DNA of 64,000 nucleotides from Flexilinea sp. (GTDB taxonomy: Bacteria; Chloroflexota; Anaerolineae; Anaerolineales; Anaerolineaceae). The notes under the pieces are model-generated. The model had not been told where the DNA came from and did not search any database. It was given only the letters and a program-made list of their open reading frames with translations. The stretch's first letter is position 1. The number at the start of each line of letters is the position of its first letter. Where the stretch lies: assembly GCA_026645735.1 (NCBI GenBank), contig JAPKMT010000004.1, forward strand, positions 1 through 64,000, read 5' to 3'. Of the stretch, positions 5,074 to 42,896 are shown one piece after another. A program made the translations under genes and the position numbers.

Positions 5074-5195
5074 ACAATTCGAAATTTAAAAAAAGTCTTT
5101 TGAGTTAGAAGAGAAAACTTATAGTTGTGTTGTTTTTGCGCTCCGCGCAAAAACAATACAACAATAAATAATCTCTCTCATTATTCGAATCGCTG
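5074..5195. repeat. Palindromic intergenic element, copy 2
   Basis: Left end CAATTCGAAATTT, right end ATTCGAATCGCTG. The central stem (about 5122-5166) is capped by GCGC-TCC-GCGC at 5138-5148. This is the type A stem (TTGTTTTTGCGC) with one G.T pair. It lies between the convergent GT-C operon and jag. Confidence 0.85.
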
Positions 5196-5210
5196 ATTTG
5201 CTAATCTTTA

Positions 5211-5996
5211 TTAATTCTTCGGCAGAATAACAACCTTCCGGTTCGGTTCTTCACCAACGCTTTCAGTATATACGTTTTTATAGTCCCGTAAAGCCAGATG
5301 AATGATGCGACGCTCTGTTCCTGGCATCGGTTCCAATGAAATCCGTCTGCCAGATTTGGTCACTTGCTCTGCCATTCTGGATGCCATCTGACGTAGTTGG
5401 CGCTCTCTGCGTTCACGATAACCCTGCACATCGATCATGAGCGGTATCCAATGCCCTAATTCACGGCCTACGATCAGACTGGTGATGTATTGAAGTGCGT
5501 TTAATGTTTCTGAATGACGCCCGATCAGATAGGATAAATCATCGCCTTTGATATCAATCATGATGGTTTCCTGTTCCGATTCATCAGCCGTCTTACCAAT
5601 TTTTCCGATTACGGAAGCCTGAATGCGCATCTTCTCCAAGAGTTCTTCCACCACATTGATGGCAACTTTTAAAGTATCTTCGTTGATCACTTCCGCAGTG
5701 GATTCCTCATTTTCAGAAAATTCTGGCCCTGCGAAAGGGACAGAAACCTCAGGTTTTTTCATCAGGAAATCAGGTTGCTGGATGGACACCCGGACATCCT
5801 GGATTTCTTCAACGAGCTCTTCCATTACGGTCAGTCGAACACGCGCCTGCCTGCCTCCTAAACCAAATATGCCTTTGCTGCCAGAATCAAGAATCTCAAT
5901 TTCAACTTTTTCGCGGCTGATTCCAAGCTCAGCCAAACCTTTCGTAATCGCCTCTTCGGAACTTGGCGCTATATATTCAAGTGTAGTTTTTGCCAT
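5211..5996 (-). CDS. jag: Jag/KhpB RNA-binding protein (Jag_N-KH-R3H)
   Basis: A cytoplasmic RNA-binding protein that accompanies YidC and, in Gram-positives, partners KhpA to affect cell-envelope growth. From the chosen start it has 261 residues: an N-terminal Jag_N domain (TLEYIAPSSEEAITKGLAEL ... GLGGRQARV), a middle KH domain with the loop IGRHSETLNALQYI, and a C-terminal R3H domain rich in arginine (RRERQLRQMASRMA ... MPGTERRIIHLALRDY). I start at the ATG at 5996, preceded by GGGG, because the longer frame adds 23 residues unlike the family. It follows yidC closely at the end of the rpmH operon. Confidence 0.92.
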   Translation of the reverse strand: MAKTTLEYIAPSSEEAITKGLAELGISREKVEIEILDSGSKGIFGLGGRQARVRLTVMEELVEEIQDVRVSIQQPDFLMKKPEVSVPFAGPEFSENEESTAEVINEDTLKVAINVVEELLEKMRIQASVIGKIGKTADESEQETIMIDIKGDDLSYLIGRHSETLNALQYITSLIVGRELGHWIPLMIDVQGYRERRERQLRQMASRMAEQVTKSGRRISLEPMPGTERRIIHLALRDYKNVYTESVGEEPNRKVVILPKN

Positions 5997-6015
5997 ATCG
6001 TTTACTTGCCCCGTT

Positions 6016-6963
6016 TTATAGATTCTTCTTTGGTTTTTTCTTGTTTTTGAATTCGCGATAATCAATCTTCTCTTCTTCCCTCGCTGCGGAACTGGTCGTT
6101 GTGCTGCTTTTTGCAGGAGCGGAAGTGGATACCGTTGTTTTTGGTTTCTGTGGGATGGATACAGGTGCAGGCCCTGTTAAAACGGCTGTTTTTTGTTTTC
6201 CAAATTTTAAAGCAGACCAATTTAATTTTCCTTCCACGCCGTATTGCACAATCGTGAAGACGTTCGAAATCAGAAAATAAAGTGATAAGCCGGAAGCCAA
6301 TGTATAAGCCATGAACCCCATCAGAACCGGCATGTAAATATTCATCATGCCTGTCATCATCGCACCGCTTCCGCCAGCGCCCGCTGTGGAACCACCGGTT
6401 GGAGACTGCATCGTCAGTTTTGTCTGCAAAATTGTCGTAACCACCACAAGAATGGCAAGAACAGGGATGCCGAAATTAATTCCTGGTAAAAACAAACGTT
6501 CCGGCTGTCCTAAATTCATCCATAAGAAACTCGGATTGATCGGGAAAATCTCTCCGATTTTCAATAATCCCGGATAAATCCGTTTGGTCAAGTCCAGCAT
6601 TCCAAGCGGTGTTGATACAATCGCAGCGATAACAGCCTGATATAAAGCAAAGATTACCGGAAGCTGGATCAGGGTTGGAAGACAGGAAGCTGTCGGATTC
6701 ACACCCATTTCTTTGTACAGCTTCATTTGTTCCTCAGCCAGTTTCTCCTTGTTGTCCTTGTATTTCTCCATCATTTCCAGATATCGCGGAGATTTCTGCA
6801 TTTCCATCATGGCAGCGGAGCTCTTGATCTGTGATCGCATTAATGGATAAATGACAAGTTTGATCAGAATGGTAAAAAGAATGATCGCGACGCCAAAATT
6901 ATCCACAAGTTTATAAATATACAGCAAAATATCCAGAAAGATATTTACAAAAGATTGCCACAT
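6016..6963 (-). CDS. yidC: YidC/Oxa1 membrane protein insertase, short type
   Basis: A membrane insertase that helps small and Sec-dependent proteins fold into the inner membrane. At 315 residues it lacks the large periplasmic domain of proteobacterial YidC and resembles the Gram-positive/Oxa1 form. Hydrophobic segments are at about 20-45, 105-130, 165-190 and 215-245. A hydrophilic cytoplasmic loop contains RYLEMMEKYKDNKEKLAEEQ, followed by GVNPTASCLPTLIQLPVIFALYQ-type family sequence. The tail is Ser/Thr/Ala-rich and ends in basic residues (KNKKKPKKNL), which could touch ribosomes. AGGAGAGG precedes the ATG. It lies 12 bp after the beta-propeller lipoprotein gene and just before jag. Confidence 0.95.
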   Translation of the reverse strand: MWQSFVNIFLDILLYIYKLVDNFGVAIILFTILIKLVIYPLMRSQIKSSAAMMEMQKSPRYLEMMEKYKDNKEKLAEEQMKLYKEMGVNPTASCLPTLIQLPVIFALYQAVIAAIVSTPLGMLDLTKRIYPGLLKIGEIFPINPSFLWMNLGQPERLFLPGINFGIPVLAILVVVTTILQTKLTMQSPTGGSTAGAGGSGAMMTGMMNIYMPVLMGFMAYTLASGLSLYFLISNVFTIVQYGVEGKLNWSALKFGKQKTAVLTGPAPVSIPQKPKTTVSTSAPAKSSTTTSSAAREEEKIDYREFKNKKKPKKNL

Positions 6964-6975
6964 AGTATCCTCTCC

Positions 6976-8091
6976 TTATTTTGCCGGGGTCTTGGCAGCA
7001 GTGTTTGATTCGCCCTGGTAAAGCCAATTCTCTTTTAAGTCATTGGAAAAGCTTTTTAACAGGGAATCACCAGGGATGAAAGCAGTAGCGAACGAATCAT
7101 CATATACAACCGGGGATGACATCGTTTTCAATTTCGTTGAACGAGTACCGACCGATTTTCCGTCAAGATCATAGATAAATAAATCGCCATTTTCTGCCGC
7201 GATCAATATATTTTGATTGGAAAGCTGCACAGGAGCGGCAATAATTGGGCTGCCGTCTCCGGTAATATTGTTCAGCGTCCAAAGGGATTTTTCAGTTTTC
7301 AGGTCGCTGCAATACACATTGCCCTGCATATCGGCTGTAATGATTCTGTCTTCCAAAACCAGAGGAGCAGCCCATATTTCGCCAGTTGTCTGAACAATCG
7401 TTTCGACCATTCCATTTCCGGGATGGTAGGTATGAACCTCTTTCCCGAATGTACTGAAGTAAATCACACCGTTGGCATAAACGAGATGGTCCATAATGGC
7501 GCCATTGGTTTCAACGGATTCCAGCATTGCGCCGGTTTTTAAATCAATCATATTCAGTTTCTTATCCAAAGAGGAGACATATACTTTCCCATCTAAAACA
7601 AGGGGGGTTGTCCATACTTCACTGGATAATTTCGTGGTCCACACCGGATTGGAGTAATCTGAGACAGCATAGGCGGCGATAGCGCCATCACTGGATGGGA
7701 TGATCATTAATCCATCATTGATTACCGGTGATGCAATAATTTTACTTTTAGAGGATGGCAGTTCAATCTTCTGTACCAATTCACCCGTATTTTTGTTCAG
7801 GATGTGAATTTGATTATGATAGGTCCCAGTATATAGCAAATCGCCATCGATAACCGGCGCTGCATAAAATAGAAGGGTTTTGTCGACTTCTGCTGGATAA
7901 CTCCACTTTTTCTGACCATCTTCAACAGCGCTGACAAATGAATTATAGGCCGTGTAAATTGTATTTTCCTCAGCCGTAATTCCAGGCCAGCTCGTCGCAT
8001 TGTTCAGGGTACTGTTCCCTGCACAGGAGCTCAGCAATAGTGCACTGAAAAGCACAAGCACACTTATCAGAATTGTTTTATTTTTTTTCAT
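6976..8091 (-). CDS. PQQ-like beta-propeller lipoprotein (BamB-like fold) in the rpmH-yidC operon
   Basis: A 371-residue exported lipoprotein. The signal peptide KKNKTILISVLVLFSALLL ends in a lipobox LSSC with lipidated Cys23. The rest is a repetitive beta-propeller of the PQQ/quinoprotein type, with recurring GxVYCSD, GDLFIYDLDGK, GxIAAYAV and DKKLNMIDLKTG blades. I start at the ATG at 8091, behind GGAAG, rather than the upstream GTG. It sits between yidD and yidC, 12 bp from yidC and 26 bp from yidD, in an operon otherwise devoted to membrane-protein insertion. By analogy with BamB it may be a surface scaffold for inserted proteins, but that is inference; no enzyme residues are recognisable. 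Confidence 0.85.
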   Translation of the reverse strand: MKKNKTILISVLVLFSALLLSSCAGNSTLNNATSWPGITAEENTIYTAYNSFVSAVEDGQKKWSYPAEVDKTLLFYAAPVIDGDLLYTGTYHNQIHILNKNTGELVQKIELPSSKSKIIASPVINDGLMIIPSSDGAIAAYAVSDYSNPVWTTKLSSEVWTTPLVLDGKVYVSSLDKKLNMIDLKTGAMLESVETNGAIMDHLVYANGVIYFSTFGKEVHTYHPGNGMVETIVQTTGEIWAAPLVLEDRIITADMQGNVYCSDLKTEKSLWTLNNITGDGSPIIAAPVQLSNQNILIAAENGDLFIYDLDGKSVGTRSTKLKTMSSPVVYDDSFATAFIPGDSLLKSFSNDLKENWLYQGESNTAAKTPAK

Positions 8092-8117
8092 TGATTTTTC
8101 TTCCACCCGGGATTCTA

Positions 8118-8468
8118 TTACGGAACCGGATCAAAACCGCCGGGATTGAATGGGTTGCATCGAAGGACACGCCAAATTGCCATCGGAACACCTCTAAGCG
8201 CCCCATATTTATAAATTGCCTGATAGGCATAATGAGAACATGAGGGATAAAAGCGGCATGTATTGCCAGGCAGGAGTTTGGAAAACGTATATTGATAACC
8301 GCGAATTAAACCCAAAAAGAACCAGCGGGAGATCGTTTGAATTTTAAAGGGAAGATCACGCAGGCGCGGCTCTACAACAGAAGGTTCAGAATTGTTTTTT
8401 TCTTCTATTGGGTTATTATTGTTTTCCTGTACTCGATCGTTCACGTTGACAGAATAGCTTAAATACAA
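8118..8468 (-). CDS. yidD: YidD membrane protein insertion efficiency factor
   Basis: A small membrane-associated protein that helps YidC-dependent insertion. The conserved core is complete: [32 protein letters not shown], and [18 protein letters not shown] at the C-terminus, including the three family cysteines. A polar stretch of about 40 residues ([11 protein letters not shown]) precedes the core and is longer than usual. No ATG is available. The given start is a TTG overlapping rnpA by 10 bp; a GTG at 8444 is equally possible. Gene order rpmH-rnpA-yidD-yidC supports the call. Confidence 0.9.
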
Positions 8469-8797
8469 ATTCCGGCTTTATGGATCATTAAACGCAACGC
8501 TGCACTGATTTCAGAGACCTCTGCGTGAGCAATTGGCTTTCTCGCGATAATTATCGCTTTCACATCAGGACGAATCTGATCGACAATTTCATCTACGGAT
8601 ACACGAATCAATCGTTTAGCGCGATTTCGCTCGACTGCTCCGCCAATTGATTTTGTCGCTATGACGCCAATTTGACATTCTGTCTGATCTTCACCGGACA
8701 ATACGATTAAAACGAGAAGCGGGTGTGGAAAGGATTTCCCTTTCTGCCTCACCCGCTGAATATCAGTAGTCCGGTTCAGACGTTTTTTACGTTCCAA
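8459..8797 (-). CDS. rnpA: Ribonuclease P protein component
   Basis: The protein subunit of RNase P, which assists the catalytic RNA in maturing tRNA 5' ends. It has 112 residues, normal for the family, and contains the signature RNRAKRLIR (residues 57-65) plus the N-terminal [18 protein letters not shown]. It initiates at TTG behind an AAGGTG ribosome binding site, lies 68 bp after rpmH, and its end overlaps the probable yidD start. Confidence 0.95.
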
Positions 8798-8865
8798 AAG
8801 ATTACACCTTCAGGTTCGTCATTCAGTCTGATTGCTTTTAATAATCTTTATACCGTCCGGTTCTT

Positions 8866-9039
8866 TTACCAGCGAATCCGTTTCACATGATTATTCATGG
8901 AAACAGTAAGGGTTTTCCGTCCACGTGCGCGGCGGCGTTTTAAAACTTCACGTCCATCCGCAGTTAGCATTCGTTCACGAAAACCGTGAACACGCACACG
9001 GCGGCGAATTTTTGGTTGATAGGTTCGTTTTGTTGACAT
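8866..9039 (-). CDS. rpmH: 50S ribosomal protein L34
   Basis: A 57-residue basic ribosomal protein, read by hand from the minus strand. It begins [20 protein letters not shown] and contains the typical RERM...[14 protein letters not shown] core. About 10 extra residues ([12 protein letters not shown]) follow the point where most L34 proteins end. The start codon follows an AAAGGAAAG ribosome binding site. It is the first gene of the rpmH-rnpA-yidD-lipoprotein-yidC-jag operon. Confidence 0.95.
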
Positions 9040-9111
9040 TTGCTTTCCTTTCAGTCTCTGTACATTAACGGTACTCTTCCTGTTTGGGTTCCGTCTGCTG
9101 AAAGTTTCAGA

Positions 9112-9149
9112 TATTTCAAAAAGTTTTTTCTAAAAAACGTTTTGAAATA
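9112..9149. other. 18-bp imperfect palindrome upstream of rpmH
   Basis: TATTTCAAAAAGTTTTTT (9112-9129) is followed after two bases by AAAAAACGTTTTGAAATA (9132-9149), its reverse complement with one mismatch. It lies about 73 bp upstream of the rpmH start, so it may be a leader hairpin or a protein-binding site. It lacks the U-tract of a terminator on the rpmH strand. Confidence 0.5.
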
Positions 9150-9253
9150 CCGGACTACCTCAACATCATCCAAGGGTTTCCCGTCGTTCTTTTTTTAATA
9201 GCCGATGAATTATATCTTAATCACGGCCAATGGTCAAATTATTTTGCATTTTA

Positions 9254-9349
9254 CCAGCGATTCGAATTATGGGAGGGATTATTTGTTATTGTGTTGTTTT
9301 TGCGCAAAGCGCAAAAACAACACATTTTCTTTCTATTTCGAATCAGTGG
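9254..9349. repeat. Palindromic intergenic element, copy 3
   Basis: Left end CCAGCGATTCGAATTATGG, right end TATTTCGAATCAGTGG. Stem of type A (GTGTTGTTTTTGCGC) around the loop AAA at 9306-9308; the outer part of the right arm is partly lost. Located between rpmH and the secreted-protein gene. Confidence 0.85.
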
Positions 9350-9441
9350 TATTTTATCAGGAATTCGAAAATTCGACCGGCATTTCGAATAAAGGGAGAT
9401 TATTTGGCGCATTTTTTGCTAACCCTTTTTATCCCTCTATT

Positions 9442-9478: not shown

Positions 9479-9498
9479 CTAATCAATTTGAATGGATC

Positions 9499-12927: not shown

Positions 12928-13050
12928 CAGCGTTCCGAAATAAGGGGAGAATTATTTGTTGTTGTGTTGATTTTGCGCGGAGCGCAAAATCAACACAACA
13001 ACATGTTTTCTCTTTTTTCTCAAAAGGCTTTTCCAAATTTCTAATTGCTG
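12928..13050. repeat. Palindromic intergenic element, copy 4 (GATTTT stem variant)
   Basis: A perfect 22-bp stem: left arm 12957-12978, loop GGA 12979-12981, right arm 12982-13003. The inner stem reads GATTTTGCGC/GCGCAAAATC where other copies have GTTTTT/AAAAAC, so both arms changed together. Left end CAGCGTTCCGAAAT; long right arm TCAAAAGGCTTTTCCAAA; right end CTAATTGCTG. It lies between pepA and gcvPB. Confidence 0.9.
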
Positions 13051-19846: not shown

Positions 19847-19950
19847 CAGTAATTCGAAATATGAAAAGAATTCATTGCTGTTCTTATGGTTTTGTGCGAA
19901 GCGCAAAAACACATCAACAACAATAATTTTCTCCTAATTTCGAATCGCAG
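19847..19950. repeat. Palindromic intergenic element, copy 5 (hybrid arms)
   Basis: Left end CAGTAATTCGAAATATG, right end ATTTCGAATCGCAG. The left arm is stem type B (TTCTTATGGTTTTGTGC), the loop is GAA, and the right arm is close to type A (GCGCAAAAACACATCAAC). The arms therefore no longer pair well. It lies between the divergent HD-GYP and RNB genes. Confidence 0.85.
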
Positions 19951-25895: not shown

Positions 25896-26015
25896 CCGCG
25901 ATTCCAAATATGGATTTACTTTTCGAATAGAGAAAGAAGATTTGTTGTTCTTATGGTTTTGCGCGAAGCGTAAAACCATAAGAACAACAAAGAATTCTTT
26001 TCATATTTCGAGTTA
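25896..26015. repeat. Palindromic intergenic element, copy 6 (type B stem)
   Basis: A 24-bp stem: left arm 25941-25964, loop GAA 25965-25967, right arm 25968-25991. It pairs throughout except for one G.T next to GCG. The stem is type B (GTTCTTATGGTTTTGCGC). Ends CCGCGATTCCAAATATGG and CATATTTCGAGTTAC. It lies between the Nif11-like gene and the subtilisin gene. Confidence 0.9.
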
Positions 26016-26195
26016 CTATACTACCATTCAAATCATTTTCGGGCTCTTTTACAATGAAAGGGCCTTTTGTTTTAATATTCCCAGTGATGAAGATGTATCC
26101 GCTTTTCAAAGAAATGGCATAAAAGTTGCATTTTTTACTCACAGAAACAAAACTTTTCGATTTAAATAATCTCACTTTCTGATAAAGGAATTCCC

Positions 26196-27791: not shown

Positions 27792-27892
27792 CAGTTATTC
27801 CGAAATACAGGAATTTTTATTGATTGTTGTGTTGTTTTTGCATAGCGCAAAAACAACACAACAACAATTTTTCCTGATTAATTCGAAAAGCT
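27792..27892. repeat. Palindromic intergenic element, copy 7
   Basis: Left end CAGTTATTCCGAAATACAGG, right end AATTCGAAAAGCT. The stem is type A (TTGTTGTGTTGTTTTTGC) with an apex altered by loss of a GC in the left arm (GCATAGCGC). It lies between the convergent subtilisin and ABC permease genes. Confidence 0.85.
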
Positions 27893-27912
27893 AATCTGAA
27901 AATTGAATAAAT

Positions 27913-30465
27913 TTATTCATATCGGAGAGCCCGGATCACATCCAGGCGTGCAGCCTGCCGCGCAGGAATGACAGCCGCCAGAATTCCAAAAACCAGACCG
28001 ATGATGATAGCGGCGAGAATACCGGGCAGCGGGAAAATATATTCGGAAGGCATGAAAGTTCCTATCGCCTTAACAAAAAGGAATCCCAGGTAAAGCCCTC
28101 CTAAAATACCAAAGGTAGTTCCCAAAGCAGCCAATAGCAGACCTTCCACCGTCATCATTTGCCGGATTTGGCTCCTGGTTGCGCCGACAGCACGAAGCAT
28201 CCCGATTTCACGAATTCGTTCGATGACAGCAATGGACAAAGTGTTTAACATAGCAAGCAATGAGGGTACTGCCAGCAAAATCAGCAAAAAGTAAAAACCC
28301 GAAAAAGCTGTCTCCAGCTGATTTACGAGTGACTGTGAGTATTCCTTTCCGGATATCACTGTAAATTGATCATAACCCGAGGCAGCAGTTTTAATCGCAA
28401 TATCCGCAGCGATGATGTCAGCATCTTTTTTCAGATTTATTTGTATAAATATATCTTCTGAAACATGAAAATCTTTGAGCATGTTGTCCTGGGAGATGAA
28501 TACAGTCGTCACTTTTGCATTTAACAAATCATTCACAACGGCTGCCACTCGATATGGCTTTCGACCATCCGGTGTCGCCAGTTCGATGACGTCATCTTTT
28601 TTCGCTCCGACAGTCATGGCAAATATACTGTTGATGAACATCACCCCATCTTCTTCCAGAAGATCATAATCTTCTTCACTTCCCTCAATGAAGGTTAGTC
28701 CGCCAGCCCAGGGATAATCGTGAGGATCAATCCCTAAAACTGAAACGGAATTTTCCTTTACCTTGCTTTCCGCAAAACGCAGTGAAGACACCACATCAAC
28801 TTGTTCGACCGCGCGCAGTTTTTGTTCCAGGTCAGCACTGGCACCAATGTTCGTTCCCCATAAAGAAACTGAAGGTGGAACCATCAGATAATCGCTTCCC
28901 AAAGAAAGCTTAATCAAATTTGCAACGGAAATACTGACACTGGATACCAGCGTACCAGCGGCGACAGCAACGGCCAGTCCCAGAAGAGTTGCACTGACCG
29001 TAATGGCAGTTCTGCCAGGATGGCGGGACATATTTCCCTGAGCCAACGATCCGACGCCCTGACGGCGATAAAATCTCGCCAAAATCTTTCCAAACAGCAA
29101 TGCAAATGGTCGAACCGCTGCAGGTGTTATACAGACCAGCCCAAGCAGAAATGCAAAAGCACCGATGCCGATCCACATCATTTGATCAGAAAACAGCATC
29201 AGAATTCCACCACCAATCAGGATGGATCCCATCAAGAAGAAAATTCCAGTTTGTTTCCGGTAATTGACATCCGCAACAGAAGGACGTAACGCATCCAACG
29301 GCACAATACGCGCTGCTTTTATTGCCGGAATCAATCCGGACAAAACGGAGATGGACACACCGAGCAGCAAACAAATACCAACTAGCGCTGGAGGAACAAC
29401 CGGATTGCCCAGCTTGATATTGATAAAAGCGCTCATCGGCTCTTGAGCCAGTCGCAGGATTCCATAACCCAAAAAATACCCGGATACGATACCCAAAAGC
29501 GATCCGATGATTCCCTGAATCAAGCCTTCGATCAATATCATACCGGATACTGTACTGCGGTTGGCGCCGACTGCCCGCAATAATCCGATATCATAGCGCC
29601 GCTCGAGAACGATGGTCCGAAAGGTATTAAAGATAACAAAAGCTCCCATGAATAAAGCCAAAACACCAAATACATTCAAAATCATTTGACCCATATCCAT
29701 GACGCCCAGCAATTCTTCATTGCTGTTCAATGATCCGATTTGAAAATCCTGACCGAGCTTTTCTCGGATGGCAGAAACTACTTCATCCCGTTGTTTCTGA
29801 TCCTCAAAATCTTCGATATTAACTTCAATCAGATTAATCTTCCCGGCACTGTTCATGATTTCCTGCGCAAATGATAGATTAACAAATATTTCTTCATCCC
29901 CTGGAATGGTACGTGGGAACAGTAAGCCGACAATTGTCAGTTCCCTCTCACCAATTACGGTTGGGATACGGAGTGACTCGTCAATTTTGACTGCAATTTT
30001 ATCCGCGAGTGATTGTGTTATAACGACAGCATCGCGATCTTCTGCCCGTAAGAATCTGCCTTCCTTCAACGGATAAGATCGGACCGACTGTGCATTATCC
30101 AGATCTAAACCCTCCAGGTTCAGAACAGAGACTCGATCCGGAATCCGATCATCCTGATCAAAATAATTTTTTGGCAAATTAATCGTCCGGAACATTTGCC
30201 CCGTTGCTGCAAGCACACCTTCAATCGGCACAACCTGTTCAACCAGTGACTGGTCAATCAAATTGCCGTTAATATGAGAAATCGTCAAACTGGCCTGACC
30301 GGAAGCGGCATAAATGTTGGTCTTAATCGCTGTGACCATCGTCGGCAGAACGATGTTCATGCCAAAAATGACCATAACGCCAAATACAATCGCCAGTGTT
30401 GTTAAAGCAGTGCGCAGTTTTCTGCCGTGTAAGTATCGTAAAGCTAAACGAAATTGAATATTCAT
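27913..30465 (-). CDS. ABC transporter permease with two FtsX/MacB domains
   Basis: An 850-residue permease with eight or more membrane segments. The two halves each carry an extracytoplasmic MacB-type domain and an FtsX block. The first helix is followed by FGVMVIFGMNIVLPTMV. The FtsX blocks read ERRYDIGLLRAVGANRSTV and ERIREIGMLRAVGATRSQI, the conserved ELGxLRAxGxxxxQI-like coupling motif. It works with the ATPase upstream, 49 bp away. MacB/YknZ-type systems export peptides, antibiotics or lipoproteins or sense envelope stress. The PadR gene leading the operon suggests a xenobiotic or peptide-stress role (inference). Confidence 0.92.
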   Translation of the reverse strand: MNIQFRLALRYLHGRKLRTALTTLAIVFGVMVIFGMNIVLPTMVTAIKTNIYAASGQASLTISHINGNLIDQSLVEQVVPIEGVLAATGQMFRTINLPKNYFDQDDRIPDRVSVLNLEGLDLDNAQSVRSYPLKEGRFLRAEDRDAVVITQSLADKIAVKIDESLRIPTVIGERELTIVGLLFPRTIPGDEEIFVNLSFAQEIMNSAGKINLIEVNIEDFEDQKQRDEVVSAIREKLGQDFQIGSLNSNEELLGVMDMGQMILNVFGVLALFMGAFVIFNTFRTIVLERRYDIGLLRAVGANRSTVSGMILIEGLIQGIIGSLLGIVSGYFLGYGILRLAQEPMSAFINIKLGNPVVPPALVGICLLLGVSISVLSGLIPAIKAARIVPLDALRPSVADVNYRKQTGIFFLMGSILIGGGILMLFSDQMMWIGIGAFAFLLGLVCITPAAVRPFALLFGKILARFYRRQGVGSLAQGNMSRHPGRTAITVSATLLGLAVAVAAGTLVSSVSISVANLIKLSLGSDYLMVPPSVSLWGTNIGASADLEQKLRAVEQVDVVSSLRFAESKVKENSVSVLGIDPHDYPWAGGLTFIEGSEEDYDLLEEDGVMFINSIFAMTVGAKKDDVIELATPDGRKPYRVAAVVNDLLNAKVTTVFISQDNMLKDFHVSEDIFIQINLKKDADIIAADIAIKTAASGYDQFTVISGKEYSQSLVNQLETAFSGFYFLLILLAVPSLLAMLNTLSIAVIERIREIGMLRAVGATRSQIRQMMTVEGLLLAALGTTFGILGGLYLGFLFVKAIGTFMPSEYIFPLPGILAAIIIGLVFGILAAVIPARQAARLDVIRALRYE

Positions 30466-32008: not shown

Positions 32009-32227
32009 GGGAAAATCATTCCAACATAGATTCGGGGCCATGGAAACGATGCCATCGACAGTCTGGGTAATACCGGGCAAGCCTACCCCATAAGAACAAG
32101 CCTTGGGTCATTAACCTCCATAAGTTATTTATGGTCACTTACCTCTCTCTTTTCCAATCTGTGGATTTTCGTCAAAGTATCTATTACCCCCCTCATATAA
32201 ACACCACCCAATATTCACGTATTTTCA

Positions 32228-32566
32228 TTCCTGATTTTCGATCTGAATATGAATTCTGAAAGCGGTTTGATCACCAACCTTGAAGTGACTTCATGAGAGG
32301 TGTATGACGAACATCATTTTTGCGCCCTGGTTGATCGGGATCTGGTTCAGAAATTACCCGTGAACACCTAAGCTGGGGATAATCATAACTACTTATGGTT
32401 AAAGGGGCTGCATTCGGGGATACTGTTCAAACGAAACCAGATGATAAAAAAAGATAAGAACGAGGAAATCAGGCTTAATTTGGAGAAAACACCCGATTAT
32501 ATTGCCGTGGGAAAAGATAGGGACAAGATTGAGTGGAAAATTGGTGTGAAGAAACGATTTCGTTGA
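32228..32566 (+). pseudogene. Remnant of a DDE transposase (IS5/IS1182-like C-terminal part)
   Basis: Reading straight through gives about 113 codons in one frame with two internal stops (TGA at 32294-32296, TAA at 32369-32371). Recognisable segments are SGLITNLEVTS, EVYDEHHFCALVDRDLVQKL, YLWLKGLHSGILFKRN and KTPDYIAVGKDRDKIEWKIG. These match the end of IS5-group transposases (EVYDGHQFCALVEKD ... KERYKIERKFGEAK), including the DxxKIExK-type final acidic motif. No start, terminal repeats or N-terminal part are visible. The 200 bp upstream is G/C-richer than its surroundings and may also be IS-derived. Confidence 0.7.
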
Positions 32567-32648
32567 CATCATCTATATTTCAGAGTACATTGATTAATAT
32601 TTTAATGAACGGTATAAAATAATCCATCAAAATACTTAGGAGATAATT

Positions 32649-33638
32649 GTGGATGAGTTTAATTTTTGCATAGAAGATATTCAAAATATTCATATCTGGC
32701 AAGCAAGAGAACGAATTGAAAAGTATGTTTACCACACTCCATTGGTATACTCTTCCGCCTTAAGCCAACGCACCGGGGGAGAAGTTTTTTTGAAAATGGA
32801 AATTTGGCAAAAATGCGGCTGTTTTAAGGTTCGCGGGGCGATTAATATGGTTTCCGTTTTAACGGCTGAACAACGCCGTAAAGGTCTGGTCACTTGCTCA
32901 AGCGGAAATCATGGAACAGCACTGGCCTATGCCGCCAGTTTGTTCGGTTACCCTCCTACCCGTATATATTTGCCGAAAAATGCAGAGCCTACTAAGGTTA
33001 ATCGAATTCGCAGTTTTGGCGCGGAACCAGTTTTCCATGGAGAGCATTTTCTTGAGGCGTATGCAGAGGCAATTTCCTATTATAAAAAGAGTGGAGCAAC
33101 TTATGTACATTCCCATGGTGATCCCCTGGTTATTGCTGGTCAGGGCACAATTGGAATAGAAATTATGGAAGATTTACCCGATGCTGAAATGATCATTGTG
33201 CCTGTTGGTGGAGGTGGTATTCTCTCCGGGATTGCCATGATTGCAAAGAGTGCTTCCCCATCGATTAAAATTATCGGCGTCGAATCGGATGCTGCTCCTG
33301 GTGGCAGTATATCGTTCCGGGATGGTTATTGTCATGAATGGGTTGATATTAAACCAGGCATTGCTGATGGGATTATGGGGACTCTAACCCCACTAACTTA
33401 TCAGATTACTAAAGATATTGTTGAGACTATTGAAGTGGTTTCCGATACAGAAATTGTGGAAGCAATGCGAACATTTCAGGAAGATGAACAAATCATTGTT
33501 GAACCTGCAGCATGTGTTGGTTTGGCGGCTGTGCTGGCGGGCAAGATAAATATCAAAGGGAAAAAAGCGGTTTTTGTGCTTACAGGCAGGAATGTGAATT
33601 CCAGGAAGTTTAATGAATTAATCGCCATTGGTAAATAA
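32649..33638 (+). CDS. Threonine/serine ammonia-lyase-like PLP enzyme
   Basis: A 329-residue fold-type II PLP enzyme of the threonine dehydratase/serine racemase group, expected to deaminate threonine or serine. The PLP lysine is K60 in CGCFKVRGA, the phosphate-binding loop is VPVGGGGILSGIA, and SSGNHGTALAYA is the usual substrate loop. There is no ACT domain, so it looks like the short catabolic form (TdcB-like) rather than the isoleucine-pathway enzyme. It starts with GTG, 6 bp after AGGAG. It lies directly downstream of the transposase remnant. Confidence 0.88.
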   Translation: MDEFNFCIEDIQNIHIWQARERIEKYVYHTPLVYSSALSQRTGGEVFLKMEIWQKCGCFKVRGAINMVSVLTAEQRRKGLVTCSSGNHGTALAYAASLFGYPPTRIYLPKNAEPTKVNRIRSFGAEPVFHGEHFLEAYAEAISYYKKSGATYVHSHGDPLVIAGQGTIGIEIMEDLPDAEMIIVPVGGGGILSGIAMIAKSASPSIKIIGVESDAAPGGSISFRDGYCHEWVDIKPGIADGIMGTLTPLTYQITKDIVETIEVVSDTEIVEAMRTFQEDEQIIVEPAACVGLAAVLAGKINIKGKKAVFVLTGRNVNSRKFNELIAIGK

Positions 33639-33761
33639 TTCATTAAATATTTCCATAGGAGGGGATATTTATAGGAATCTTGTATCTGTTCCATATTTGT
33701 TTCTTGTGTCTTTCCTTTTCCAATCTGCATCGTTATACGCAATATGACATTCTTTGTCATC

Positions 33762-33828
33762 GGAAGTTCCTTTCGAACGATTTTTGTGGATAAAAATTAT
33801 TTTATCGTTTGGAACTTCCTCTTTTTTT
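33762..33828 (+). terminator. Large hairpin terminator after the threonine dehydratase gene
   Basis: GGAAGTTCC (33762-33770) pairs with GGAACTTCC (33811-33819) and AACGAT with ATCGTT inside it. A run of seven T follows. It is about 125 bp past the stop. A smaller hairpin ATGACA-TTCTT-TGTCAT lies just before it. The rest of 33639-33942 holds no gene. Confidence 0.65.
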
Positions 33829-33942
33829 ATTTATGATCCTTGACCAGGCAAATTTGAAGCGAAGACGACAAATTCTGACACAAGGATCAGCCTGTACCGG
33901 TTCATGGTAAACTAAAAGAAAAATATCAAGTGTGAGGTATTC

Positions 33943-34917
33943 ATGGCAGTCCGCACAGCAGCCGCCATCGCGCATCCAAATATCGCATTCATCAAGTATT
34001 GGGGTAACAAAGATGATTTGCTGAGACTCCCATTGAATGGATCCATCTCGATGAACCTCGGCACATTACATACCAGAACCATTGTAAGTTTTCGGGATGA
34101 GCTGCGTTGCGATACCTTGAAAATCAACGGGAAGGAAATTAGTGGAGAAGCTTTGATCCGTGTCCGAAATTTCCTTCAAATCATCCGCTCGATGTCCACT
34201 GAAAACCGCTTTGCTTCGGTGGAAAGCATCAACAACTTCCCAATCGGGGCCGGGATTGCTTCATCCGCAGCCGCCTTTGCTGCACTGGCTCTTGCCGGAA
34301 GCACTGCAGCCGGAATGGAACTTTCAGAAGCGGAATGTTCCAGATTAGCACGCAGAGGTTCCGGATCTGCCTGCCGCTCTGTTCCTGCCGGTTATTCGGA
34401 ATGGTTGGCGGGAGAAGACGACCTATCTTCGCTTTCTGTTTCGATTGCTGCGCAAGATTACTGGGATCTGATCGACTTGATTATCATTGTCTCAGAAAAT
34501 CACAAGAAAGTCGGATCCACAGCCGGTCATGCGCTGGCAGCAACCAGTCCTTTTCAGCATTCCAGAGTCTTATCCGCACCGGAACGGCTGCAGGAATGCC
34601 GGGAAGCGATTCAAAATCGTGATTTCAACCGATTGGCTGATGTCAGTGAAAAAGATTGTACGATGATGCATGCGGTCATGATGACCCAAAAACCTCCACT
34701 TTTTTACTGGGAGCCTTTGTCACTGGAAATCATGAAAACTATCATGGAATGGCGAAAAGATGGAATTCCATGCTTTGCCACTTTGGATGCAGGCCCGAAT
34801 GTGCATATTATTTGTCCGGCTTCTGTTTCGATGGCGTTGCAGCCAAGACTGGAAAAGATCGCGGGAGTAAAAGAAATTATTCGATCCAATATCGGCGGTT
34901 CAGCAGTTCTTGTTTAA
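33943..34917 (+). CDS. Mevalonate-pathway decarboxylase (diphosphomevalonate or phosphomevalonate decarboxylase)
   Basis: A 324-residue GHMP-superfamily enzyme forming isopentenyl (di)phosphate by ATP-dependent decarboxylation. The family signatures are complete: AHPNIAFIKYWGNKD near the N-terminus, the ATP loop PIGAGIASSAAAFAALALA, GSGSACRSVPAGYSEW and the catalytic aspartate in FATLDAGPNVHI. A homologue from the chloroflexote Roseiflexus has been described as a phosphomevalonate decarboxylase acting before isopentenyl phosphate kinase, so either substrate is possible. GAGG precedes the ATG. No other mevalonate gene lies in the window. Confidence 0.9.
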   Translation: MAVRTAAAIAHPNIAFIKYWGNKDDLLRLPLNGSISMNLGTLHTRTIVSFRDELRCDTLKINGKEISGEALIRVRNFLQIIRSMSTENRFASVESINNFPIGAGIASSAAAFAALALAGSTAAGMELSEAECSRLARRGSGSACRSVPAGYSEWLAGEDDLSSLSVSIAAQDYWDLIDLIIIVSENHKKVGSTAGHALAATSPFQHSRVLSAPERLQECREAIQNRDFNRLADVSEKDCTMMHAVMMTQKPPLFYWEPLSLEIMKTIMEWRKDGIPCFATLDAGPNVHIICPASVSMALQPRLEKIAGVKEIIRSNIGGSAVLV

Positions 34918-36169: not shown

Positions 36170-36176
36170 TCACAAT

Positions 36177-36300
36177 CAGCAATTCCAAGTATGGATAGAA
36201 TTACTTGTTGTTGTGTTATTTTTGCGCGAAGCGTAAAAATAACACAACAACAAACTTTCTCCCATTATTTATAAAGAATGTTCTTATTTCAAATCACGGG
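36177..36300. repeat. Palindromic intergenic element, copy 8 (TTATTTTT stem variant)
   Basis: A 23-bp stem: left arm 36205-36227, loop GAA 36228-36230, right arm 36231-36253. It pairs fully apart from one G.T. The stem reads GTTATTTTTGCGC/GCGTAAAAATAAC, a double change from the type A stem. Left end CAGCAATTCCAAGTATGG; right end TATTTCAAATCACGGG. It lies just upstream of the arcC promoter. Confidence 0.9.
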
Positions 36301-37965: not shown

Positions 37966-38082
37966 TGGGTAGCGTTATAAATTGCTGATGGAAACAACCA
38001 ACAATCAGGACAGCCGAATGAAAAGAATTGGATCGTGATTTATGGGGAATTCAAAGAAAATGGACCTGTTATTGAATATAAA

Positions 38083-38141
38083 CCAGCAATTCGAAATATG
38101 GATATGTCTTTCGAATTAATAGAGAATATTTGGAATCGCTG
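38083..38141. repeat. Palindromic element relic without the central hairpin
   Basis: Left end CCAGCAATTCGAAATATGG and right end AATATTTGGAATCGCTG are both present only 59 bp apart; the central stem is missing. This supports the terminal repeats as true element ends. Confidence 0.65.
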
Positions 38142-38215
38142 AATTTAGACCATGTGTTTTGAAATTTTAAGGACCGATTATAATCTAATCAATTGAGTTT
38201 TATGAGGAGAGGCTG

Positions 38216-40024
38216 ATGTCCATTCAAATACTTGCCGATGAGGTTGTTTCTCAGATTGCCGCTGGAGAAGTCATCGAACGCCCTGCCTCTGTTGTCAAAG
38301 AATTAATAGAAAACGCGATTGATGCTGATGCATCAGCAATCGCTGTTCGAACGGAAGAAGCAGGGAAACGAGTCATCGAGATATCCGACAACGGTTGCGG
38401 TATCCAACCGGACGAGCTTGAAAAAGCCGTCATGCGGCATGCAACCAGCAAATTGACAAGTGCGGAAGACTTATTTCACATTCATACGCTCGGTTTTCGG
38501 GGTGAAGCCCTGGCTGCGGCCGGCTCAGTATCTCGCATGCGCATTACCACCTGCACAACCGAAGGAAACAATGGGGTTTCAATCACGGTGGATGGCGGGA
38601 AAATCACCGGTATTCATCAGATTGGTACAAAACAGGGAACGATCGTTCAAGTTTCTGATTTATTTTACAACGTACCTGCCCGATTGAAATTTCTGAAAAG
38701 TGATGTAACAGAACGGAATCAGATTGAAATCTTAATCTCCAGATATGCCCTGGCTTACCCGCATATTCGCTGGCAAAGCACTCATGATGGCAAACCGGGA
38801 ATTCGAACCACCGGAAACAATGATTACCGCGAAGTTCTCACCGCAATCTATGGCGTTGACACAGCAAAGAAACTGATAGAGATTGATCTGAAAGAAGAAG
38901 GAACCTCGGTTTCGGGGTTCATCAGCCCGGTAGCTTTGACACGTTCCAATCGCAGAGAAATGAATTTTTTTGTGAACGGCCGCTGGATTCAGGATGCCCA
39001 GCTCAATTCCGCTGTAATTCGGGCATACCAGTCTTTGATCATGGTTGGCCGATATCCCATTGCGGCATTATTTATCTCCATGGATCCGGAAGAAGTGGAC
39101 GTAAATGTTCATCCCTCCAAGGCTGAAGTCCGATTTCGGGCTCCGGAAAAAATTTTCGGAATCGTGCATCGCGCTGTTCGACGCAGTCTGATCTTTCAAT
39201 CTCCGGTCCCAGAAATTCATTCCAACACACGCTGGCCTGGATGGCAAGCCTCTGCAGGCTCGCAAACTACCAGTGATCCTTTGACATTGGATAAAACGCC
39301 GGCAGAAGGTGTGCCGGTTTCATTATGGAGATCCGATTTTCTGCAGCCTCAAAACCCGTCTGATTCATCCAATGCGGATGGCGAAACAACAGCATCCTCA
39401 CAGCAGCCACCCGATTTTCAGGCTGCCGCACAGAATCCGGTTTTCCCAATTCTGCGCTGGATTGGTCAAATCGGAGGAACCTATGTCATTGCAGAAGGTC
39501 CGGATGGACTCTATCTGATCGATCAGCACGCAGCGCATGAACGGATTCTGTTCGAAAAGTTAATAGCCCAGGCAAGTTCAAAAATTGCATCGCAGTCCCT
39601 TCTGGAACCCGCCATCGTTCAGGTATCAGCCTGGCAGGCTTCATTATTGGAAGAAAACATGGAAATTCTTAACAGACTTGGATTTCGGATTGAATTATTC
39701 GGTCCGGCGACCTATCGAATTCTTTCAATTCCGGAAATTTTCACCAAAGGAAATCCCGCAGCCGCTGTTCGTTCCATTGTTGAGAATTTTGAAGAAGATG
39801 AAACACCACTCCAATCTGAAATTGAAAAAAGGATTGCCGGACGGATCTGTAAAAGCATGGCGGTAAAAGCAGGGCAGCCTTTGTCCGAAGAGGAACAGCG
39901 AGCCCTCATTCGGGATTTGGAGTATTGCCAGTCACCACGCACTTGTCCCCATGGACGCCCAACCATGATTCATTTAAGCATTCATCTTTTGGAACGACAA
40001 TTTGGAAGAAAAGGTACAATATAG
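38216..40024 (+). CDS. mutL: DNA mismatch repair protein MutL (endonuclease type)
   Basis: A 602-residue mismatch-repair ATPase. The N-terminal GHKL domain has IAAGEVIERPASVVKELIEN, DNGCGI and GFRGEALAAAGSV. A Ser/Gln/Pro-rich linker spans about residues 340-405. The C-terminal domain carries the endonuclease motif DQHAAHERILFE and the zinc-site motif CPHGRPT, so this MutL should nick DNA itself, as in bacteria without MutH. GAGGAGAGG precedes the ATG. No mutS is adjacent. A palindromic element follows the stop. Confidence 0.96.
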   Translation: MSIQILADEVVSQIAAGEVIERPASVVKELIENAIDADASAIAVRTEEAGKRVIEISDNGCGIQPDELEKAVMRHATSKLTSAEDLFHIHTLGFRGEALAAAGSVSRMRITTCTTEGNNGVSITVDGGKITGIHQIGTKQGTIVQVSDLFYNVPARLKFLKSDVTERNQIEILISRYALAYPHIRWQSTHDGKPGIRTTGNNDYREVLTAIYGVDTAKKLIEIDLKEEGTSVSGFISPVALTRSNRREMNFFVNGRWIQDAQLNSAVIRAYQSLIMVGRYPIAALFISMDPEEVDVNVHPSKAEVRFRAPEKIFGIVHRAVRRSLIFQSPVPEIHSNTRWPGWQASAGSQTTSDPLTLDKTPAEGVPVSLWRSDFLQPQNPSDSSNADGETTASSQQPPDFQAAAQNPVFPILRWIGQIGGTYVIAEGPDGLYLIDQHAAHERILFEKLIAQASSKIASQSLLEPAIVQVSAWQASLLEENMEILNRLGFRIELFGPATYRILSIPEIFTKGNPAAAVRSIVENFEEDETPLQSEIEKRIAGRICKSMAVKAGQPLSEEEQRALIRDLEYCQSPRTCPHGRPTMIHLSIHLLERQFGRKGTI

Positions 40025-40062
40025 ATAGAAAGAATGATTTCTTTGATAATTCAGGTCAGAAT

Positions 40063-40185
40063 CGGTAATTCGAAATTTGGAAAAACCTTTTGAGAAAATA
40101 GAGAAAACTTGTTGTTGTGTTGTTTTTACGCAGAGCGCAAAAACAACACAACAACAAATAATAACCTCCATATTTCGAATCGCTG
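40063..40185. repeat. Palindromic intergenic element, copy 9
   Basis: A 23-bp type A stem: left arm 40109-40131, loop AGA 40132-40134, right arm 40135-40157. There is one A.C mismatch on the plus strand, which becomes G.T on the minus strand. Long left arm TTTGGAAAAACCTTTTGAG; right end TATTTCGAATCGCTG. It lies between mutL and degV. Confidence 0.9.
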
Positions 40186-40353
40186 GATCAGAATACTGAA
40201 AATTGAAATAGAAGCTGGCCTTTTAAATTAAATTTTTAGAATGGATTTGAAAAATTTTTGAATGAAGTCACAGACAAGAATTGTTTTCATATCATATCTT
40301 TTTTGAAACAAATCCATCATATTTATCGGGAACTGCCGAAATAAAGGAAAATT

Positions 40354-41214
40354 ATGCAGATAGTTACAGACAGCGGAGCAGATTTATCGGAATCACAACG
40401 TAAAGGACTGGCTATTCATTACGCACCATTACGAATTACTCTGAGCGGAAAAACTTATGATGGAGAAAACGAGTTATCCGGTGAGCAGTTTTATAAACTT
40501 TTAAGTGAGACGGATGACTATCCTACGACCTCCCAGGCTTCTGCAGGGGATTTTGCGAAAATTTATCAAAATCTTGCAAAAAAAGGGGAGAAGATCCTTT
40601 CCATCCATATCTCTTCCGGCCTAAGTGGCACACTGAATTCTGCCAAAGTGGGTGCAGCGATGGTTCCGGAAGCAGATGTAACATTTTGGGATGCAAAAAC
40701 ATTATCAGCCGCACAGGGATGGCAGGTACAGGCTGCTGCAATCGCAATTAAAAAAGGCTGGTCCCTTGAAAAAATCCTCGAAAGACTCAGCTTGATCCGT
40801 GATCAGGTAACCGGGATGTTCACGCTGAAAGAAATGCGATATCTGATTCATGGAGGACGGGTGAGTCATTTAAAAGGACTCATGGCTTCAGTTTTAAACA
40901 TCAAACCCGTGATCAGCGTCGATATTAATACGGGGAAATACGCAACATCCGCACAAACAGTGACCTTTAAACGAGCAATCGCACAAATTGTTGAACTGAA
41001 TGCCGAAAAATACGGAAATCAAAAACTGCGTACGCAAATTGTTCAGGGTTTATGCCCGGATGGTGTTGAATTATTGAAACAGAAAATGTCCGAAAAGCTG
41101 GATTGTTTTTTTGAGGAGACTGTTCCTGTAGCGCCAGCATTGGGTGCGCACACAGGACCTTCTTTAACCGGTCTGATCTCCGGGCCAATGTCTCTTTTTG
41201 CTGATTTGTTGTGA
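40354..41214 (+). CDS. DegV family fatty-acid-binding protein
   Basis: A 286-residue DegV protein. In Firmicutes these FakB-like proteins bind a fatty acid and present it to the kinase FakA. Characteristic segments are VTDSGADLSESQ at the start, PTTSQASAGDF, the acyl-binding ISSGLSGTLNSA and RYLIHGGRVSHLKGL. Length and order of motifs are normal. AAAGGAAA precedes the ATG. No fakA-like DAK gene is adjacent, so the fatty-acid kinase role is family-based inference. Confidence 0.92.
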   Translation: MQIVTDSGADLSESQRKGLAIHYAPLRITLSGKTYDGENELSGEQFYKLLSETDDYPTTSQASAGDFAKIYQNLAKKGEKILSIHISSGLSGTLNSAKVGAAMVPEADVTFWDAKTLSAAQGWQVQAAAIAIKKGWSLEKILERLSLIRDQVTGMFTLKEMRYLIHGGRVSHLKGLMASVLNIKPVISVDINTGKYATSAQTVTFKRAIAQIVELNAEKYGNQKLRTQIVQGLCPDGVELLKQKMSEKLDCFFEETVPVAPALGAHTGPSLTGLISGPMSLFADLL

Positions 41215-41360
41215 AGGAGTCTGCTGTTTTTCGTACAGAAAATAATTTTAATATCAACTGCTTGATTGATTTCAACAAGTTGTACAACAAATCAGAGATT
41301 AGATTGTTCGTAAAATGATTCCCGAAAAAGGAAGAATTTTTCACAGTACACCTCAGGTTC

Positions 41361-42800
41361 ATGTTTTCCATTAATTTTCTTAGGAATCAATGCCGGCTGA
41401 AGCCGAATGATGTGGTTGTTGCAGGTATTTCCGGTGGCGCAGACAGTCTCTATCTCCTGTACCATCTGCATGAGATCGGACAGCCTGTGATCGCGGCTGT
41501 CTTCAACCATCAATTACGACCGGAAGCAGAAGAAGAAGTTGTTTTTGTTCAAAATATCTGTGAAAAGCTGGGAATCCATTGTATAACCGGCGCAGCGGAT
41601 GTTTCCGCTTTTTCGAAGCTGCATAAACTGTCTCCGGAAGAAGCTGCCAGAATTTCCCGGTATCAATTTCTATTTCGGACTGCAAAGGATTGGGAAGCTG
41701 CAGCAGTCGCTGTTGCGCACCACGCCGACGATCAGGTTGAGACCATCCTGATGCATTTCCTGCGCGGAAGCGGACTTGACGGGCTGGCGGGCATGAATCC
41801 AATCACATTTATTCGACAATGGGACCCGGACAGAAAAATCCCCTTGATTCGCCCGATACTCCCTGTGTGGCGTCAGGAAATCGATGCCTGGTGCAAAGAG
41901 AACAAGATTCAGCCGGTTCAGGATACGTCAAATTCCGATACTACCTATTTTCGCAACCAATTACGACATCAGCTCATTCCCGAGCTGGAAGAGTGCTACA
42001 GCCCGCAATTCAAACAGCACTTGCAGGACATGTCTCAGACTATCCAAGAGGACCAAAGAATCATCCACGATGCAGTTAACGTAGCCTGGTCTGCTTCAAT
42101 AATCTATGCGAATTCTGAAAAACAACAGATTGTGTTCGACCGCGCCCGATTCTCAAATCAGTTGAAAGGGATCCAGACAAGATTATTGCGAAAAGCGTTT
42201 TTCATGCTGCAGTCAGATTCGCGTGATTTCAGTTTCTTTACATCTACCCGTGTCCTGGAATTTTTGAAAAATGCAAAAGAAAATGATGCGCAGCCGTTCA
42301 TCAATCATCTATGGATGGCCGTTGAAGACGGTTTATTTTTGATATACGCGCAGGACCGACGGCCCAACATTCGCAAGTTTCCACAAACGCTGTACACTCC
42401 ATCGACTTTGTTAAATCTGCCTGGAGAAGTCCCGTTAGAAACAGGAAGAATCATCGGTAGCGTTGTGGATTTCAATCCGCAGGAATTCGATTCGATGATC
42501 TATTTGATGAAAAACAATCGCAGCATCGTGTATCTGGATTCAGACAAAATCGCATTACCGCTTTACGTCAGAAATGCCAAAAGAGGTGAAACTTTTTCTC
42601 CGCTTGGATCAAACGGTCATACACAGAAAATTTCGGATTTTTTTATCAATCAAAAAATCCCCAAAAATTATCGCGGTCTGTTCCCACTGGTTTCTGATCA
42701 GAATGCGATCATCTGGATTCCGGGTTATCGTCCAGCTGAATTTTGCCATCTGACAGCAGACACAAAGCATTGTCTGTGTCTGATATGGGAACCACAGTAA
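41361..42800 (+). CDS. tilS: tRNA(Ile)-lysidine synthase
   Basis: A 479-residue ATP-pyrophosphatase that converts C34 of the CAU-anticodon tRNA-Ile to lysidine, switching its identity from Met to Ile. The PP-loop SGGADS is at residues 24-29; further marks are AHHADDQVETILMHFLRGSG, IRPIL and DTSNSDTTYFRNQLRHQLIPEL. A C-terminal TilS domain (KRGETFSPLGSNGHTQKISDF) closes the protein. The stop codon lies inside the left end of palindromic copy 10, so the final residues may come from an insertion. It starts about 145 bp after degV. Confidence 0.95.
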   Translation: MFSINFLRNQCRLKPNDVVVAGISGGADSLYLLYHLHEIGQPVIAAVFNHQLRPEAEEEVVFVQNICEKLGIHCITGAADVSAFSKLHKLSPEEAARISRYQFLFRTAKDWEAAAVAVAHHADDQVETILMHFLRGSGLDGLAGMNPITFIRQWDPDRKIPLIRPILPVWRQEIDAWCKENKIQPVQDTSNSDTTYFRNQLRHQLIPELEECYSPQFKQHLQDMSQTIQEDQRIIHDAVNVAWSASIIYANSEKQQIVFDRARFSNQLKGIQTRLLRKAFFMLQSDSRDFSFFTSTRVLEFLKNAKENDAQPFINHLWMAVEDGLFLIYAQDRRPNIRKFPQTLYTPSTLLNLPGEVPLETGRIIGSVVDFNPQEFDSMIYLMKNNRSIVYLDSDKIALPLYVRNAKRGETFSPLGSNGHTQKISDFFINQKIPKNYRGLFPLVSDQNAIIWIPGYRPAEFCHLTADTKHCLCLIWEPQ

Positions 42801-42896
42801 TTCGAAATATGAAAAGAATTTATTGTTGTTCTTATGGTTTTGCGCAAAGCGCAAAACCATAAGAACAACAAATTTTCTTGATAGATTCGAAAAGTC
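42795..42896. repeat. Palindromic intergenic element, copy 10 (type B stem), overlapping the tilS stop
   Basis: A perfect 23-bp stem: left arm 42823-42845, loop AAA 42846-42848, right arm 42849-42871, reading GTTCTTATGGTTTTGCGC. Left end CAGTAATTCGAAATATG contains the tilS TAA; right end GATTCGAAAAGTC. This is the cleanest type B copy. Confidence 0.92.

Follow-up and report, generated by a model that had tools for sequence, protein, structure and literature searches.

A 123-bp miniature inverted-repeat element family in Flexilinea whose stem arms change together, probably through template switching

The RUP, Correia and Nezha elements are bacterial miniature inverted-repeat transposable elements (MITEs) mobilised by an insertion sequence. 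REPINs consist of two inverted REP sequences that a RAYT (Y1) transposase mobilises in single-stranded form, and to our knowledge they have no fixed target duplication. A review of bacterial MITEs is available (PMC10969869). Two further papers report that arms are homogenised and spacers inverted by template switching (PMC8604942), and that it can keep hairpins in existence (PMC8794818). Here we describe a dispersed palindromic element from a 64,000-base stretch of Flexilinea DNA (the window, i.e., bases 1-64000 of contig C44 of genome G000, which comprises 3.35 Mb in 86 contigs). An earlier annotation, the sequence-only reading, had proposed a MITE or REPIN whose stem reflected either selection for pairing or arm-to-arm copying. 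Our analysis supports a previously unnamed family of a known kind, a MITE; it is probably a 123-bp family mobilised in trans, in which stem pairing and the paired changes are kept mainly by template switching. Mobilisation in trans and template switching as a physical process are what we infer from the data below.

The consensus, obtained from a full-length alignment of 40 copies picked for their complete ends, comprises 123 positions, with a short arm of 51, a loop of 3 nt and a long arm of 69. The ends are of the form CAG...CTG (CAGYRATTCGAAAT / ATTTCGAATYRCTG), and the unequal arms give the element a direction, which the sequence-only reading had not mentioned. Among 66 copies located in 461,136 bp, 56 had both ends matching at 14 or more of 18 positions. 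In 25 of these 56, 9-bp flanking repeats agreed at 8 or more positions, compared with 0 to 1 of 56 at 14 shifted registers, and the identity per position was 33 to 40 of 56 within the nine base pairs versus 10 to 16 of 56 just outside them. An insertion sequence with the same ends was found in genome G010 (L055:821-2452; 1,632 bp), its leftmost 17 nt being identical to the MITE consensus and its target duplication (GCATTCTGT) matching at 9/9. The terminal inverted repeats, the 9-bp duplication and this insertion sequence support the assignment of the element as a non-autonomous MITE.

The insertion sequence contains a 446-amino-acid open reading frame whose product gave weak Pfam matches, below the cut-offs, to DDE_Tnp_1 (E 0.0011) and DDE_Tnp_1_assoc (E 0.00049). 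No NCBIfam model matched it at E values up to 1, and an assignment to ISNCY thus finds no support in a curated transposase model. When the protein was aligned with two plasmid homologues, D128, D216/D217 and E344 were invariant, and we regard it as a DDE-type transposase. The insertion sequence could be the one that moves the family. The transposase was detected in one of the 14 genomes of the genus and in three of 147 genomes of the family, in one of these in pieces. Two other candidate partners were rejected. An IS256-type transposase gave 12 matches in G010 and 1 in G000, and in 10 of these 13 loci, which were read, no consistent pair of terminal repeats surrounded the gene; a transposase lying beside a copy at L054 was IS1634-like, and the repeats adjoining it belong to a MITE copy. 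The uneven distribution of the IS256-like gene itself (PF00872), 12 matches in G010 versus one in G000, was recorded as a separate observation.

In the whole G000 genome, the GCGC-NNN-GCGC core with up to 2 mismatches was matched 324 times, and a control with the pattern reversed was matched 2 times. A covariance model, for which 40 copies were used, six of them in the window, found the MITE in 5 of the 14 genomes of the genus: at least 150 copies in G000, at least 150 in G010, 141 in G003, 43 in G008 and 1 in G002. Among named genomes, 12 of the 14 stretches matching the exact 26-base core lay in Flexilinea flocculi TC1, and G010, approximately 82% identical to G000, appears to be the genome of that species, in the same genus as the window. 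The exact 26-base core was not found in viral contigs, and one window gene had no match in plasmids. Nor did we come across a named family like it: in an Rfam scan of the window only a tRNA reached the gathering score, and no paper was found on Flexilinea transposable elements or on Anaerolineaceae miniature inverted-repeat elements. One exact core hairpin was seen at L050:7570-7598 (DBPU01000094.1), on a contig labelled Verrucomicrobia bacterium UBA1412, which we guess to be misbinned.

An extended set of copies with E values up to 3e-14, a cut-off that omits weaker copies, comprised 112 copies in 901,088 bp of G000 and 50 in 634,873 bp of G010. Copy numbers were not extrapolated from it, since the regions were chosen partly for holding copies. 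After rows with stem gaps had been dropped, 107 of 112 and 46 of 50 rows, respectively, were kept.

The changes in the stem were studied in an alignment of 64 copies which, being fitted to the covariance model, leans towards structure. Both-sided changes were observed in 15 of the 22 pairs, and 136 cells were changed on both sides compared with 35.8 (standard deviation, 4.4) in shuffles and at most 22 in slid controls, in agreement with the earlier claim that the arms change together. The covariation score was 0.296, compared with 0.083 in shuffled data, and 97.4% of the stem cells paired when G-U was counted. The 40-copy model alignment agreed, with 79 double-changed cells versus 20.8. The stem positions previously reported as variable (9, 10, 12, 13 and 15 from the loop) were the five most variable pairs both in the 64 copies and in the 107.

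The two parts of the stem behaved differently. In G000, non-pairing cells amounted to 45/1926 (2.3%) in the outer 18 pairs versus 47/428 (11.0%) in the inner four, and in G010 to 43/828 (5.2%) versus 53/184 (28.8%). Each copy was then compared with its closest neighbour in the unpaired columns (92 comparisons in G000 and 39 in G010, leaving out two and one rows, respectively, with more than 4 outer mismatches). In G000, the outer pairs showed 125 double, 45 single and 4 other changes, and the inner four showed 9, 59 and 5 (Fisher's test, 7e-18); the corresponding values in G010 were 124, 37 and 9 versus 15, 54 and 13 (4e-15). Thus, the four G-C pairs that close the loop change mostly one side at a time, and the outer 18 change together. 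The departures from GCGC were distributed over both arms, with 54 in the short arm and 52 in the long one. Outer arms were homogenised, their likeness within a copy being 0.953 versus 0.756 when shuffled; neither the terminal repeats (0.703 versus 0.723) nor the 8 nt outside the stem (0.382 versus 0.393) were.

Since the duplications are identical and the arms complementary at insertion, mismatch between the duplications can be used as a yardstick of age. For the 74 of 106 G000 copies with a duplication matching at 5/9 or better, mismatches reached 83/666 (12.5%) in the duplications, 35/296 (11.8%) in the inner pairs and only 21/1332 (1.6%) in the outer pairs. For the 29 of 46 such copies in G010, the values were 26.4%, 32.8% and 5.2%, respectively, the 5/9 cut lowering the duplication figure in both genomes.

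Paired changes were also observed at orthologous insertions. Syntenic G010 flanks were found for 73 G000 hairpins, which had been loosely called and included some chance palindromes in genes, and in 22 cases a hairpin was called inside the G010 interval. Four of these were counted, a fifth is described uncounted, and 17 were dropped, for a differing orientation or insertion point, for a nested or degenerate copy, or as palindromes arising in genes by chance (C11:150886 and 178287; C3:19571, 20540, 21317, 27436 and 30150; C4b:28317, judged from lengths alone, and 30233; C77:16507, 18158, 18276, 30400, 30639, 79122, 79252 and 88101). The counted pairs, all read with confidence, were window 27843 with L096:9750, L136:6144 with L115:14771, L024:14062 with L102:17945, in which one bulged base was allowed, and window 9306 with L097:8408. 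Of their 60 outer pairs, 46 did not differ, 8 had double changes with pairing in either genome (1, 4, 1 and 2 in the order given), 5 differed on one side and 1 was doubly changed but unpaired in one genome. The first of these insertions, the old window copy at 27792..27913, differed from its G010 counterpart by one paired change (G-C versus A-T), with zero single-sided differences in 16 outer pairs. The fifth shared copy, L021:12525 (C11:52525), had an entirely different paired core in G000 and G010. Seen at orthologous insertions, the double changes arose in place, unless independent insertions hit the same sites. The comparison of loci with and without the element gave less: for 8 of 42 testable copies, the G010 stretch differed by no more than 25 bp from the length predicted for an empty site, the alignment identities of 0.41 to 0.81 reflecting diverged spacers.

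In 96 of 107 G000 and 38 of 46 G010 copies, one of the two strands had a triloop of the form RRA. The purine-rich strand coincided with the short-arm strand in 41/107 and 25/46, respectively, so that in G000 the direction of the loop is nearly, though not completely, independent of that of the element. In 28 nearest-neighbour pairs within 10%, 8 loops were identical, 6 were exact reverse complements and 14 were otherwise different, when random draws would be expected to give approximately 4 identical and 4 reverse-complement loops. It is from the presence of both orientations across the copies, that is, at the level of the population, that we infer inversion of the loop.

A mechanism that would account for these data is the following. 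The MITE would be moved in trans by the DDE-type transposase of the insertion sequence with the same CAGCAATTCGAAATATG ends, creating the 9-bp duplication. During DNA replication, the nascent strand may then fold back at the loop, anneal over the few loop-closing bases and copy the opposite arm outward before returning to its normal template. The outer arm would be rewritten to match its partner, the annealed loop-closing bases would rarely be corrected, and a variant of the same switch would invert the loop. A single type of switch could in this way account for the paired outer changes, the one-sided inner changes and both loop orientations. We are inclined, with somewhat less assurance than for this mechanism, to regard the MITE as a genome-wide record of template switching, displaying strong RNA-like covariation without structural selection and a 4-bp loop-closing primer zone that is rarely corrected.

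Several observations weigh against this interpretation. The outer stem of G000 changed less per site than the unpaired columns (approximately 0.09 versus 0.14, with 0.12 in the inner pairs), and in G010 the two were equal (0.22, with 0.35 in the inner pairs). The inner arms resembled each other more within a copy than when shuffled (0.876 versus 0.774, a difference that odd loop lengths in some copies may have increased), and the inner pairs are therefore not entirely free. In a tally that includes inherited ones, the double changes at eleven T-A pairs, most of them invariant, were 27 to A-T, 2 to C-G and 3 to G-C, and double changes tended towards A/T; this excess of T-A to A-T is not predicted by unbiased copying, given that the unpaired columns show another mix (89 T/A, 64 transition and 28 T/G-type changes). 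Chimeras with mismatched arms remain uncorrected. Biased repair, or a constraint on the outer-stem sequence, acting in addition to copying, could explain such misfits. The loop orientation was biased in G000 (41/107; two-sided P = 0.02; P = 0.66 in G010). Inner mismatch did not rise evenly with decay of the duplication, being 8.0% (9/9), 13.2% (7-8), 17.5% (5-6) and 9.4% (4 or fewer) in G000, which implies that part of the inner mismatch is older than the insertion or that certain ends were misplaced; in G010 it was 32.1% (7-8), 35.7% and 22.1%. An individual switch was not observed in any comparison of close relatives, the two genomes compared being only approximately 82% identical. The transposase was detected neither in G000, at a completeness of 92%, nor in 12 of the remaining 13 genomes of the genus, and with hundreds of copies and no transposase detected at that completeness, the family may now be immobile in G000. 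One study reports that, in rRNA, an excess was seen for multiple compensatory changes and for loop inversions by themselves, but not for single compensatory changes, nor for those joined to loop inversions (PMC8794818).

The alternative that the hairpin is selected to pair, either as RNA (transcript stability, termination or regulation) or as DNA (a protein target), and that its arms are kept matched by compensatory mutations, would explain the almost complete pairing, the covariation far above that of shuffled and slid controls, the slow change of the G000 outer stem, the over-representation of RRA triloops on one strand or the other and the partial likeness of the inner arms. However, the loop-closing G-C pairs, which would be expected to be the main stabilisers of such a hairpin, change mainly on one side (9 double versus 59 single), loops in both orientations are not predicted, copies with unpaired arms persist, and the dominant T-A to A-T flips have no possible G.U intermediate. 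Nor was a signature found at the RNA level. The 62 tandem copies had 19 G.T, 17 A.C and 10 other mismatches on the transcribed strand, with no excess of G.U, and the element had the same orientation as the genes in 29 cases and the opposite one in 33. Excluding 6 copies in open reading frames and 3 at edges, the genes flanking the 112 G000 copies were convergent in 20 cases, tandem in 62 and divergent in 21, a distribution that, with genes called by a simple open reading frame script, resembled that of the intergenic space (15%, 59% and 26%, respectively) and indicated no preference in gene context. With the G.U/A.C test, orientation and context all without signal, a function as RNA was rejected; so was an intrinsic terminator, since the T before and the A after the hairpin are, as read from the sequence, the wrong way round. 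We consider selection for the hairpin unlikely; of the two origins offered by the sequence-only reading, template switching between the arms fits the data better.

It is more doubtful still that the pattern is due to descent only, i.e., that transposition accepts or makes perfect palindromes, the double changes occurred in master copies and the inserted copies are young. The two main stem subfamilies, GTGTTG and CTTATGG, each common to many copies, would be in accordance with this, as would the inner mismatch of 8% already present in the 28 G000 copies with 9/9 duplications. Against it, the 107 G000 copies without gaps included no pair within 5% of each other in the unpaired columns, so the copies are not young; outer arms stay paired though the target duplications have diverged by 12.5% and 26%, and orthologous insertions differ by paired changes. 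The REPIN half of the initial proposal can be given hardly any credence. Like REPINs, the element is short, mostly intergenic and palindromic and reaches hundreds of copies in one genome, but its duplications have a fixed length of 9 bp, and the full-length insertion sequence with the same ends encodes a DDE-type enzyme. Furthermore, Y1_Tnp was not found in any of the four element-bearing genomes searched (G000, G003, G008 and G010), the same search being positive in 5 of 14 control genomes; a REPIN was accordingly ruled out and the MITE half of the proposal retained.

In the window, the GCGC-NNN-GCGC core with up to 3 mismatches occurred 9 times; 100 shuffles gave 0.79 on average, and 9 was not reached in any of them. 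The covariance model recovered all nine two-armed copies, and the copy cut by the window start, where they had been placed. The cut copy (1..65, + strand, the strand being that on which the short arm comes first) covers model positions 59-123 with 55.2 bits. Full elements were found at 5072..5195 (-; target duplication ATTTGCAAA/ATTTGCTAA, 8/9), 12928..13050 (+; 123 bp; TCATTGAAG, 9/9), 25896..26018 (-; CTTATGG subfamily; AACTACCAT/TACTACCAT, 8/9), 36177..36299 (+; flanking repeat GTTCACAAT, 9/9), 40063..40185 (-; GGTCAGAAT/GATCAGAAT, 8/9) and 42795..42916 (+; CTTATGG subfamily; duplication decayed to 4/9). The duplication of the copy at 36177 is ambiguous, since the flanking repeat sits within a longer direct repeat (more than 20 bp). 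The G010 stretch syntenic to 12928..13050 had the length that an empty site should have (97 versus 96 bp; identity, 0.65). Two of the nine copies need qualification: the right stem arm of the element at 9255..9348 (+), also present at the orthologous G010 site (L097), is truncated in its outer portion, and the one at 19847..19950 (+) is a poorly pairing chimera, with a left arm of the CTTATGG subfamily and a right arm from another. The claim that all have CAGYRATTCGAAAT-like ends was too strong, as those of the old copy at 27792..27913 (+), common to G010 (L096), are badly decayed (12 and 11 of 18). A stem-less relic at 38084..38169 (-; 40.8 bits) keeps the terminal repeats.

A chimera similar to that at 19847-19950, with unmatched arms of which one belongs to the CTTATGG subfamily, was observed at L025:8917-9040, and such copies suggest recombination between elements inside the common core. 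Other repeats were also noted. One of approximately 80 bp at L023:17939-18022 (G000:C11) has many copies in G010, dispersed as well as closely spaced, and two like hairpins 177 bp apart, at L023:15422 and 15599 (ATAGGATAATAGACA / TGTCTATTATCCTAT plus a near copy), are possibly a third palindromic repeat. Window positions 32117-34307, a 2,191-bp stretch that contains the gene of a PALP (pyridoxal-phosphate) enzyme, were 98% identical to G009:C89:42399-44589, other same-genus gene matches in that search being 64 to 84%; this likeness may reflect recent transfer or a binning error.

Paired-base covariation is the main evidence for calling conserved RNA structures. In this family, very strong covariation is found alongside loop-closing pairs whose two sides mostly drift separately, and it therefore need not mean function. 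Since each copy carries a 9-bp duplication of its own age, the family also offers a natural assay of the frequency, distance and starting point of template switches during the replication of short palindromes.

The closest relatives of the insertion sequence that we found are on cyanobacterial plasmids. Thirteen plasmid records matched the transposase (the best at approximately 39% identity), of which NC_014534.1 is annotated as ISNCY, AP025021.1 only as 'transposase', and NC_019773.1 without annotation there. These transposases are approximately 37 to 40% identical. The copies from Anabaena and Calothrix are bounded by CAGCAATTC ends and flanked by 9/9 duplications; for the Gloeothece copy, the same search gave no ends. 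A 40% identical copy in G090 likewise has, as read from its sequence, CAGCAATTC ends with GGAATATAT on both sides. The plasmid insertion sequences differ from that at L055:821-2452 in the inner part of the terminal repeat. Like other bacterial MITEs mobilised by an insertion sequence, the element is short, has terminal inverted repeats and a target duplication, occurs in hundreds of mostly intergenic copies and has ends that match a full insertion sequence. Unlike them, it has a new end sequence and host genus, a central stem of 22 pairs with a 3-nt loop, and evidence that its arms change together after insertion. Among the titles listed in the literature, we recognised no MITE shaped by template switching. 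The homogenised arms and the probable inversion of the loop are in common with quasipalindrome and template-switch mutation (PMC8604942, PMC8794818, PMC7202029), and the difference lies in the approach: template switching is deduced here from a dispersed family with its duplications as a yardstick, rather than from parent-offspring comparisons.

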